From Actinomycetota bacterium (GTDB lineage: Bacteria > Actinomycetota > Coriobacteriia > Anaerosomatales > Anaerosomataceae), in NCBI GenBank assembly GCA_009773565.1, contig WSXY01000009.1, positions 62,001 to 126,000 of the forward strand: 64,000 bases of DNA. Direction: 5' to 3'. Positions 6,696 through 59,884 of this stretch are shown in pieces. Both the position numbers and the translations under genes were made by a program. Each line of letters starts with the position of its first letter. Positions within the stretch are counted from its first letter, which is position 1. A model generated the notes under the pieces. It saw nothing but the letters and a program-made list of their open reading frames with translations. It had not been told where the DNA came from and ran no database searches.

Positions 6696-7013
6696 ATGAG
6701 CGGCGATAAGAAGCGCGCCAACGATGATGCCCTGTTGAATCTTGAGGAGAAGTCCCTCGAGGAGCTTCGGGGGTTACTCGATTCGATCTACGAAGAGGAG
6801 CAGGCCGTCAGCTATCGCAGACGCGTGCTTCACGGGAAGATCGATATTCTCCGTGCAGAACTCGTTGGTCGCCTGAAGTCGCAGCGTGAGGGCGGCGAGG
6901 GAGTCGTCTCGGGTCACGACATCGAGCGGCTCATCGGTATCCTCTCGAGCGACTTGCATGGCGTCTCCAAGTACGACGTCGCCGCCGTATCTGACGATGA
7001 TTGGGACGAGTAG
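6696..7013 (+). CDS. RsiG-like helical protein with one c-di-GMP signature motif
   Basis: Small (105 residues), charged, mostly helical protein. Residues 35-50 read E-QAV-S-YR-R-RVL-H-GKI-D, which is the E(X)3S(X)2R(X)3Q(X)3D signature of the anti-sigma factor RsiG with histidine at the Q position (E35, S39, R42, H46, D50). In Streptomyces, RsiG uses two such helices to bind a c-di-GMP dimer and hold sigma WhiG; single-motif homologues that act as homodimers have been described in other actinobacteria. The flanking segment LEEKSLEELRGLLDSIYEEE also resembles the RsiG helix preceding the motif. GGAGG at 6687-6691 supports ATG 6696. No sigma factor gene is adjacent. The name is by motif only and binding is not shown. 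Confidence 0.68.
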   Translation: MSGDKKRANDDALLNLEEKSLEELRGLLDSIYEEEQAVSYRRRVLHGKIDILRAELVGRLKSQREGGEGVVSGHDIERLIGILSSDLHGVSKYDVAAVSDDDWDE

Positions 7014-57159: not shown

Positions 57160-59664
57160 CTACTGCAGTGCGCTCATGACTGCCGTACGAACGCCTCTTG
57201 TCAGGGCACTCGGGCCGCCGAGGTACTTGACGGCGGTGATGCCGGCCCGATTGAGGGCCAGGCACGACTTGGCGTCGCTGTTCAAAGACGCTCCGGTGGT
57301 GAGTAGGAGGACGGACCCTTCCTGAGCCTGCAAGACGCCGCCGGAGAGCGCGTCCGGGAAGTTCGCACCGGTTGCCATGGCCACGCGGTTCCAGTCGAGA
57401 CCAGCGTTGGCGACGGCCCACGTCGCGATGGCGACCGAGGTCGCGTAGCGGTTGCCGCCAGCAATCCTGGCTACATTGCTGGATCCGTACCGCACGACGA
57501 GGGCGGCGTGAACACTCGCGCCAATAGCGCCGGCTCCGCCGAGGATGACAACCTTGTTGGCGCCGATGTCGTTGAGTGTGGCCTGGACGCCGGCAAGACC
57601 CTTCGGACCGACAAGCAGGATTGGCCAACCCTTGGCCGCAGCCATCGGAGAGGCGGCCAGCGCATCAGCGAAGCTGCCGCCGGTTGCCAGCAAGACGGTA
57701 CCATCGTAGGCCGCACCGAGCCTCGCGACGCTCGCCTTGGCGATTGCGCCGGCGGTCTGATAGCGGTTTCCACCAGCGATGCGCTCAACAGTAGCGAGCT
57801 CGCGGCGAAGGACGCTCTCGACACTTGTGCCGACTGCGCTCGTTCCGCCGAGGATGATTGCCTTAGTCGCGCCGAGACGGCGGATCTCGGCCAGAACGAC
57901 CGGAGGAAGCTGGTTTGCGGTGGTGAGGAGGATCGGCGCGTCGACGGCGTTCGCGAGTGTTGCTCCGCCGAGCGCGTCCGGCCAGTTCGCTCCGGTGGCG
58001 ATCACGACGGTGTCAGCGCCGTTGGGATACGCGGCTTGAGAGATTGCAACGTTTGTGGCGTAGCGATCGGCGCCCTGGACTGCGGTCTGTGCGACGTTGC
58101 GGCTGTCGTCGACCGGTGCGGGCGTGGGTGCGGGCGTGGGTGCCGGAACTGCTTGCTGGAGTGCCCACGTGCCGGGGCGACCGGCTGCGGTGCATCCCCA
58201 GATACCGGACTCGATGACCGGTGCAGCGATTGTTACCGATGCACCGGTGGTGGCTGCGGGCAGAACCGACGCAACCAGGCCACTCAGCACGTTGCCTTCA
58301 ACCGCTACGGTGCTGCCATCAAGAATCGTCGCGGGCCGCCTTTGGACTGAGGCACCAGCCGGGTTGGTGATGGTGTTGCCGAGGAACGACGAGTCCGTCC
58401 AGATTCCGAGGGAGTAGAGGCCCTCAAGCGTTCCGCTGGCGGAGGCGCCGTTGCCGGTGATCGTGTTGCGAACGAAGGTGAGGCGGGTCATCGCTTCGAG
58501 AACGAGCACGCCCTCTTCAGCAGCGCCGCTTACGGTGTTGCCTTCGAAGACGACGTCGGTGAGTGCGCCGGTGAACTGTACGCCGACCTCACCGGATCCG
58601 CTGAAGGTGTTGTTGCGGACTATGACGTTGCTCGCCTTGACCGGGACGGTCTTGGGGTTGTTGACGATCGTGTTGTTCTCGTAGACCGAGTTGGAGGACT
58701 GGATGTTGAGCGGAGTCGCGAGCCACCCCGTCACGGAGTTGCGGGCGATTGTGTTGCTGTGTGACGGGTTCTCCGCAGTGATGCCCCACTGGGTGGAGTT
58801 CGCGCCACCGCGCAGGACGTTGTCCACGATCGTGGCGTTGTGGCTGAAGGTGGAGTCGCGGCCCTGGACCATGATTCCCCACTTGGCGTTCTCGATGATG
58901 TTGCCCTGCACGAGGTCATCATGCGAGCGCTCGATGTTGATGCCCGCATACGCGCCGATTGAGGTGTTGTTCACGATCGTGTTGTGGTGGGCCTTGCCCG
59001 GGCCGCCGACCTGCTCGTAGCTGACCCAGGACTCGTACTGAGTGTTGGTGGCGTAGTTGTTGGCGCAGTAGTTGTAAGCGCTCGAGTGAATCTCGACGTC
59101 ATTCTCGTTGTTGTCGAAGCGGCTGTACGTGACGCTCACGCGATCGGAGCCGTCGTAAACCGAGACCGCGGACTTCTCACAGTTGCGGATGTCGACGCGG
59201 GTGACAACGGAGTCGGTCGTGGCGGTGAACTGGATGCCGTGCGGGTAGCCGGCGGTCTGCGCGGCGATGTTGCCATCGATAGCCAGGTCGCGGACCGTCA
59301 CGTTGTTGGTGTTGACGATGGCCAGAAGCGTCAGGTTGGCACCGTCGCGGAGCTTCAAAACGGAAGTGGCACCGACGCCCGAGATCTCGAGGGGCTTGGT
59401 GACCCGGATCTGGCCGAGGATGTAGTTGCCGGCGGGGATTGTGACCGCTCCGCCGGAGACGGCTGCGTCGATCGCATTCTGGAAGGCTGCGGTGTCGTCC
59501 GCGGTGTCGGTGCCGTTGGCGCCGAAGTCGGTCACAGAGATTGCGGCGGAAACGGCTGCCGCAGGAGCAGGGAAGCTTACAAACGAGAACATGACGGCGA
59601 CAGCCGTCATGAGGATGACCACCCTAGCAGCACAAACCTTGAGAGCTTTCGCGTTGATGCTCAC
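57160..59664 (-). CDS. secreted beta-helix protein with three cell-wall-binding repeat 2 domains
   Basis: An 834-residue surface protein. The signal peptide is CAARVVILMTAVAVMFSFVSF then PAPAAAV. A Pectate-lyase-like/NosD right-handed beta-helix follows (GANGTDTADDTAAFQNAID, then repeated xxNxTIxxN coils) to about residue 500, then a Pro-Thr linker (APTPAPTPAP). The C-terminal 285 residues hold three CWB2 (PF04122) repeats with the marks ADRYATN, GGNRYQT and GGNRYAT. CWB2 domains anchor proteins to anionic wall polymers. GTG 59664 is chosen; upstream in-frame codons fall in the leader hairpin. A c-di-GMP-I-type riboswitch precedes it. The ligand or substrate of the helix is unknown. Confidence 0.92.
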   Translation of the reverse strand: MSINAKALKVCAARVVILMTAVAVMFSFVSFPAPAAAVSAAISVTDFGANGTDTADDTAAFQNAIDAAVSGGAVTIPAGNYILGQIRVTKPLEISGVGATSVLKLRDGANLTLLAIVNTNNVTVRDLAIDGNIAAQTAGYPHGIQFTATTDSVVTRVDIRNCEKSAVSVYDGSDRVSVTYSRFDNNENDVEIHSSAYNYCANNYATNTQYESWVSYEQVGGPGKAHHNTIVNNTSIGAYAGINIERSHDDLVQGNIIENAKWGIMVQGRDSTFSHNATIVDNVLRGGANSTQWGITAENPSHSNTIARNSVTGWLATPLNIQSSNSVYENNTIVNNPKTVPVKASNVIVRNNTFSGSGEVGVQFTGALTDVVFEGNTVSGAAEEGVLVLEAMTRLTFVRNTITGNGASASGTLEGLYSLGIWTDSSFLGNTITNPAGASVQRRPATILDGSTVAVEGNVLSGLVASVLPAATTGASVTIAAPVIESGIWGCTAAGRPGTWALQQAVPAPTPAPTPAPVDDSRNVAQTAVQGADRYATNVAISQAAYPNGADTVVIATGANWPDALGGATLANAVDAPILLTTANQLPPVVLAEIRRLGATKAIILGGTSAVGTSVESVLRRELATVERIAGGNRYQTAGAIAKASVARLGAAYDGTVLLATGGSFADALAASPMAAAKGWPILLVGPKGLAGVQATLNDIGANKVVILGGAGAIGASVHAALVVRYGSSNVARIAGGNRYATSVAIATWAVANAGLDWNRVAMATGANFPDALSGGVLQAQEGSVLLLTTGASLNSDAKSCLALNRAGITAVKYLGGPSALTRGVRTAVMSALQ
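57163..58065 (-). repeat. three tandem CWB2 repeats at the protein level
   Basis: Each repeat is about 95 codons and starts with a RYATN-, RYQTA- or RYATS-type motif, followed by a glycine-rich ATGANWPDALGG, ATGGSFADALAA or ATGANFPDALSG loop. The three copies are divergent in sequence, so they are old repeats, not recent DNA duplications. Confidence 0.8.
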
Positions 59665-59689
59665 GTGAACCCTGCCCCTAGTGCACATC

Positions 59690-59725
59690 GACCCGGGACT
59701 CCCTGTCGCCAGGAAGCCTCGGGTC
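59690..59725 (-). other. long GNRA-capped hairpin between riboswitch and start codon
   Basis: On the - strand GACCCG-a-GGCTTCCTG, a GCGA loop, and CAGGGAGTC-c-CGGGTC pair along 15 positions with one mismatch. It ends 25 bases upstream of the GTG start. There is no T-run after it, so it is not a classical terminator. It may be the expression platform of the riboswitch. Confidence 0.6.
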
Positions 59726-59739
59726 AATGACCATTGGGG

Positions 59740-59835
59740 CTCCGGCAGTCCGGCTGTCGTAGGAAGGTTTTCCTTCCGTTAGACCCGTGACTTTGCGAAA
59801 CCCGCCTTTCGGCGGATCGTGCCTTTTTCAGGAGA
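59740..59835 (-). promoter_or_regulatory. c-di-GMP-I (GEMM)-type riboswitch
   Basis: On the - strand, P1 pairs GGCA with TGCC. The next hairpin is CCGCC-GAAA-GGCGG (59802-59815) with the GAAA loop. CGCAAAG then C-ACGGGTCTAA follow, another hairpin GGAAGG-AAAA-CCTTCC (59762-59777) carries the tetraloop receptor side, and ACGACAGCCGG closes the domain. These blocks, in this order, are those of class I c-di-GMP aptamers. The junction before the first hairpin (CGAT) departs from the usual AAAC, so ligand choice should be tested. It precedes a CWB2 surface protein, a common target type. Confidence 0.82.
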
Positions 59836-59876
59836 TTCGTGCCGATCTGCAGTTATCAATTTCGCCTACAGTTTCT

Positions 59877-59884
59877 TTGTCGGC
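59877..59884 (-). promoter_or_regulatory. possible sigma-28/WhiG-type -10 element
   Basis: On the - strand GCCGACAA matches 7 of 8 positions of the GCCGATAA -10 of the FliA/WhiG sigma class. It is about 42 bases before the riboswitch. The -35 (CACA, 15 bases upstream) matches TAAA poorly, so this is a weak call. Confidence 0.25.

Follow-up and report, generated by a model that had tools for sequence, protein, structure and literature searches.

A c-di-GMP-I riboswitch and a putative WhiG-type promoter upstream of a CWB2 beta-helix gene in Anaerosomatales

Bacteria are known to respond to c-di-GMP both through riboswitches and through anti-sigma factors that depend on it. In the known fold of the class I riboswitch, the ligand contacts are G20, A47, and C92 in the published numbering (PMC3764141, PMC4744006); G20 and C92 hold the ligand, and G21-C46 and C22-G45 pair within P2 (PMC3764141). 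The change G20A is the one tied to cGAMP sensing. For Clostridioides difficile, the listed targets of class I switches comprise flagella, an adhesin, small proteins, and PPEP-1 (zmp1), the last being a secreted metalloprotease of the HExxH type that acts by trimming proteins of the cell surface. In Rubrobacter, RsiG-WhiG is reported to target a type IV pilin, and single-motif RsiG was described as confined to Rubrobacteria and Thermoleophilia, Coriobacteriia being unmentioned (PMC8325347). As for the order Anaerosomatales, neither of its two described isolates is motile, and their description contains no mention of riboswitches or c-di-GMP (PMC9686372). Among openly licensed papers, we found none joining a c-di-GMP riboswitch and a c-di-GMP-dependent anti-sigma factor on one transcript.

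Here, we describe a genuine c-di-GMP-I riboswitch in an Anaerosomatales bacterium (Actinomycetota, Coriobacteriia), located in a stretch of 64,000 nucleotides that was analyzed as a whole and is referred to below as the window. The riboswitch class itself is known, and what stands out is that c-di-GMP appears to act on a single transcript in two ways. Our computations gave the riboswitch class, its intact ligand residues, a conserved hairpin, a coevolving complementarity between the leader and the ribosome-binding site (RBS), a WhiG-type -10 element in the lineage, and the presence of both WhiG and RsiG. The explanation that would join them all, namely, a riboswitch with an intact ligand site, a WhiG-type promoter, RsiG, and translational repression of a CWB2 beta-helix gene, appears to us reasonably probable as a whole.

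Riboswitch class, P2 internal loop, and regulated gene

Searching the window with Infernal against all Rfam returned c-di-GMP-I (RF01051) as the sole matching family, at 59833-59741 on the minus strand (gathering score, 35; E=2.1e-10), the match spanning model positions 1-87, full length and uncut; no further Rfam match at E<=1 was found in the 5 kb around the aptamer. The score of 64.8 bits bears out the first-pass annotation, made from the letters alone, which had called a riboswitch of this type, and fold prediction agrees with it, the folding energy lying 3.0 sd under dinucleotide shuffles for the aptamer and 5.0 sd under them for the aptamer extended through the start codon. A second copy was not found in the genome (2.27 Mb, 25 contigs, 98.5% complete), and the class is present in 50 of the 61 related genomes. 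The elements of the aptamer are as follows.

59741-59833, minus strand: c-di-GMP-I aptamer (RF01051), 64.8 bits
59823, minus strand: G20, conserved ligand-contact residue, its being a G speaking for c-di-GMP over cGAMP
59794, minus strand: A47, conserved ligand-stacking residue
59745, minus strand: C92, conserved ligand-pairing residue
59816-59819, minus strand: 5' side of the P2 internal loop (variant), reading CGAU in place of the common AAAC, with the 3' side UUU at 59798-59800

The blocks named at first pass are all there (the GAAA-capped P2, CGCAAAG, ACGGGTCTAA, the second hairpin, and ACGACAGCCGG), and the aptamer has the GAAA-capped P2, P3, and G20/A47/C92 in common with Vc2 of Vibrio cholerae (c-di-GMP-I/GEMM-I, RF01051). 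Two placements had to be corrected: GGCA/TGCC, taken for closing pairs, begin with G20 and C92, respectively (the first G and the first C), both of which hold the ligand, and CGAT, assigned to J1/2, instead occupies positions 24 to 27 in the P2 internal loop, away from the ligand junction. The departing positions are 24, 25, 42, and 43, which read C, G, U, and U here and A, A, G, and A in Vc2/RF01051.

Positions 25 and 42 are highly conserved in the Rfam seed, though not as ligand contacts (PMC3764141), and the typical A25 and G42 are replaced by G and U in the window and altered in many relatives too, so that the variant loop could be read as the sign of a ligand other than c-di-GMP, be it cGAMP or some other dinucleotide. 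We regard this reading as very improbable: G20, A47, and C92 are unchanged, and the combination of C24 with a changed position 43 is scattered across several phyla. The cGAMP riboswitch GEMM-Ib of Geobacter has the overall fold family in common with the window aptamer, which lacks its A20 change, since position 20 is a G (59823). In Anaerosomatales relatives, position 24 is mostly C and position 43 is U, A, or C, both being A in canonical copies, which also occur within this order. C24 turned up in Bacillota, Acidobacteriota, Chloroflexota, and Gammaproteobacteria as well when one genome per species was scanned, position 43 there being U, C, or rarely A; because the scan selected C24 but not position 43, the pairing of the two changes is informative and its frequency is not. 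No copies of the variant pattern were found in viruses. Given the intact ligand residues and the wide spread of the loop variant, the altered ligand preference suggested at first pass is unsupported and was dropped. The P2 change is lineage-wide and leaves the ligand site intact, and c-di-GMP is the probable ligand. As a separate observation, two canonical-loop GEMM-I copies of genome G037 (L042:2057-2135 and L049:1921-1999) carry A20, the cGAMP-type change; both precede secreted-looking proteins and are candidate cGAMP riboswitches in Actinomycetota.

The gene downstream and its RBS lie on the same strand.

57160-59664, minus strand: regulated gene, GTG start at 59664, 834 aa, right-handed beta-helix, three CWB2 repeats
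59670-59679, minus strand: ribosome-binding site AGGGGCAGGG

The early description of this product as a secreted beta-helix/CWB2 protein was confirmed, with PF04122 matching at 162.5 bits in three stretches and a signal peptide called by inspection only. Across the genome, CWB2 domains were matched 63 times, in about 20 proteins, and the riboswitch is found at the window locus only. An orthologue of the gene in genome G015, 72% identical, has its own riboswitch (L039), and G015 has another riboswitch copy before an HExxH gene (L008).

Promoter, WhiG, and RsiG

The transcript most likely begins at a WhiG-type promoter, scored with the pattern TAAA-N15-GCCGATAA.

59877-59884, minus strand: WhiG/FliA-type -10 GCCGACAA, 7/8 to GCCGATAA
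59900-59903, minus strand: weak -35 CACA, 2/4 to TAAA, spacing 15
59834-59870, minus strand: transcribed leader upstream of the aptamer, with an inferred start site

As the -35 is weak and the -10 carries one mismatch, the WhiG assignment at the window locus leans on the relatives. A WhiG/FliA-type -10 (GCCGATAA, >=7/8) occurs in 42 of the 45 variant leaders, compared with 6% of shuffles, and these elements nearly all lie 35 to 46 nt upstream of the aptamer, most leaders also having a TAAA-like -35 at a spacing of 15 to 16. The orthologous locus L039 keeps the identical -10 at a nearly equal distance. No sigma-70 promoter was found for the riboswitch transcript, and the window holds no exact match to the WhiG-type pattern. 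The latter, together with the weak -35 and the mismatched -10, would be expected of an ordinary c-di-GMP-I riboswitch whose transcription is unrelated to WhiG, GCCGACAA being a chance match or a relic, but the recurrence of the -10 at a near-fixed distance, its retention at L039, and the nearly order-wide presence of WhiG and RsiG make this distinctly unlikely. Many variant leaders also have a TGTGA-N6-CACA site just upstream of the WhiG-type promoter, a CRP/FNR-like palindrome (TGTGACGAATCNCACA) that recurs 6 to 10 nt upstream of the -35 in L023, L024, L025, L055, and other leaders and is absent from the window leader.

Elsewhere in the genome, only two exact WhiG-type promoters are found, one of them before a type IV pilin gene (L200:1501-1526). 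The other match (L199:1501-1526) lies downstream of a V-type ATPase gene and may be chance.

The window also encodes a candidate partner of WhiG.

6696-7013, plus strand: RsiG homologue, 105 aa, with one E-x3-S-x2-R-x3-H-x3-D motif, putative c-di-GMP-dependent anti-WhiG factor

This protein was first located by a motif scan (E-x3-S-x2-R-x3-[QH]-x3-D); it matches the Pfam RsiG family PF22802 at 67.8 bits (cut-off, 27), and its best solved structures are those of Rubrobacter RsiG (E=1e-9). The WhiG of the genome scores 376.6 bits with NF004935 (cut-off, 343), and its best PDB matches, 6PFJ and 6PFV, are RsiG-WhiG complexes. Among the 61 relatives, RsiG is present in 57 and WhiG above the cut-off in 58. 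A flagellar role for the WhiG/FliA-type promoter was rejected, since flagellin was not found in the genome, and ten GGDEF domains represent a possible source of c-di-GMP. The single-motif RsiG, WhiG, the lack of flagellin, and a WhiG-type promoter before a type IV pilin are all in common with Rubrobacter (PMC8325347); the differences are that the pair is found here in Coriobacteriia and that a c-di-GMP riboswitch is also served by this class of promoter. We infer that WhiG uses the window promoter.

Expression platform and direction of control

Between the aptamer and the RBS lie two elements.

59736-59740, minus strand: GCCCC anti-Shine-Dalgarno directly 3' of P1, pairing with GGGGC at 59674-59678
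59690-59725, minus strand: expression-platform hairpin, 15 bp, GCGA loop, no U-tract

The hairpin is conserved in the relatives examined, with 83% of cells paired versus 31 to 55% in slid controls and with double (compensatory) changes at 12 pairs. Being long, GC-rich, and supported by covariation, it could be a U-tract-poor transcription terminator, with control by termination, and the platforms of genus g9 (L005, L008, L010, L012, and L029), where, in contrast to the other platforms, U4-U5 follows the hairpin, suggest that termination may operate in that sub-clade. For the window, we find control by termination unlikely: neither an intrinsic terminator nor a U-tract was found at its hairpin, the U-tract is also absent in most relatives, and the complementarity to the RBS shows a separate selection.

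This complementarity involves both sides of the aptamer. The consensus fold also pairs the first four aptamer bases with the Shine-Dalgarno sequence, and in the window UCCUG in the P1 5' strand (59833-59829) can pair with CAGGG (59674-59670), as can CACG in the leader (59841-59838) with CGUG over the start codon (59665-59662). The leader/RBS helix of the window is short, and its main anti-Shine-Dalgarno is the GCCCC that follows P1 directly. Whichever pairing is considered, the helix holding the RBS stands directly under P1. Pairing of the RBS with leader and P1-adjacent segments, like the WhiG-type promoter, sets this locus apart from Vc2. When the leader and aptamer 5' end were matched with the RBS and start codon at 23 non-redundant loci, own partners gave a duplex of -17.2 kcal/mol versus -14.9 kcal/mol for swapped partners (0 of 20,000 permutations as good), and own partners were still better when the CCCC/GGGG core was removed by matching the leader alone with the spacer and start (P=5e-5), an advantage that did not hold for reversed leaders (P=0.09), these P values being optimistic since swapping keeps relatedness in. 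The leader/RBS complementarity is coevolving.

Equilibrium folding does not point to either direction of control, because the Shine-Dalgarno sequence of the window is paired (0.99 to 1.00) with and without the aptamer imposed, and likewise in the orthologue. Conversely to repression, the leader and P1 5' strand could block the RBS in the ligand-free state, and the P1 formed with the ligand would compete and free it, giving an ON switch that would form an incoherent loop with RsiG-WhiG. The P1 5' strand indeed belongs to the RBS-pairing segment, one nucleotide is common to P1 and the RBS helix in the CCCCG-type relatives, which could give such a switch, and those of genera g3 and g9 show a Shine-Dalgarno pairing of about 0.85-0.99 that drops to about 0.5-0.75 once the aptamer is imposed. 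We nevertheless consider the ON switch somewhat unlikely, as the pairing is not reduced in the window or its orthologue, the P1 core and RBS helix do not overlap in the CUCCCG-type relatives, and the switch would work against RsiG-WhiG. Repression of translation, rather than activation, is favored by the position of the RBS helices under P1 and by its agreement with RsiG-WhiG.

We propose a model of double control in which, at high c-di-GMP, RsiG would hold WhiG and the WhiG-type promoter would not be served, and the messenger would then be sensed again by the mRNA through the c-di-GMP-I aptamer. The leader, P1, and the platform hairpin would bring the RBS and start codon into helices directly under P1, and, due to this position, a P1 stabilized by the ligand would most likely favor a closed RBS and low translation. 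If true, this would provide a testable case of one messenger gating both the initiation of transcription and the translation of one gene, and it would extend RsiG-WhiG to Coriobacteriia.

Targets in the relatives

The first-pass annotation had set surface display of the CWB2 protein beside Clostridioides. This comparison was loose: no CWB2 protein is named among the targets listed for C. difficile. PPEP-1 is the closer parallel, since a small secreted HExxH protein lies downstream of most of the 45 variant copies that were examined; in the window, the CWB2 beta-helix protein takes its place. The C-terminal end of the HExxH protein reads GYQAIxYYxSGRIVISxxHTxSLxxIxxHExWHIIDWRDNGxIDWGENVPP. Compared with PPEP-1, this protein is smaller, had no detectable sequence match, and has a minigluzincin-like predicted fold; it was not found in the genome of the window.

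The HExxH family had no sequence match in Pfam, NCBIfam, or PDB, and for its predicted structure (mean pLDDT, 81) the first eight PDB matches were selecase, jannalysin, and abylysin, none of them below E=0.001. Kinship with PPEP was rejected on the same grounds, PPEP-3 ranking weakly behind the minigluzincins. From the modeled fold, the protein is likely a zinc metallopeptidase.

Across the order, we give about an even chance to one gene being locked twice by c-di-GMP, through RsiG-WhiG and through a class I riboswitch with a coevolving RBS helix, the usual target being this undescribed minigluzincin-like secreted family and, in the lineage of the window, the CWB2 beta-helix protein. If true, this suggests that Clostridioides and Anaerosomatales arrived independently at surface remodeling by secreted HExxH proteins controlled through a c-di-GMP riboswitch.

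Examples of the small secreted HExWHIIDWRDNG family under c-di-GMP riboswitches are L018:1695-2237 and L094:4833-5120. On contig G048:C111, two successive riboswitches about 1 kb apart (L040:2128-2223 and L004:1501-1593) each have their own HExxH gene.
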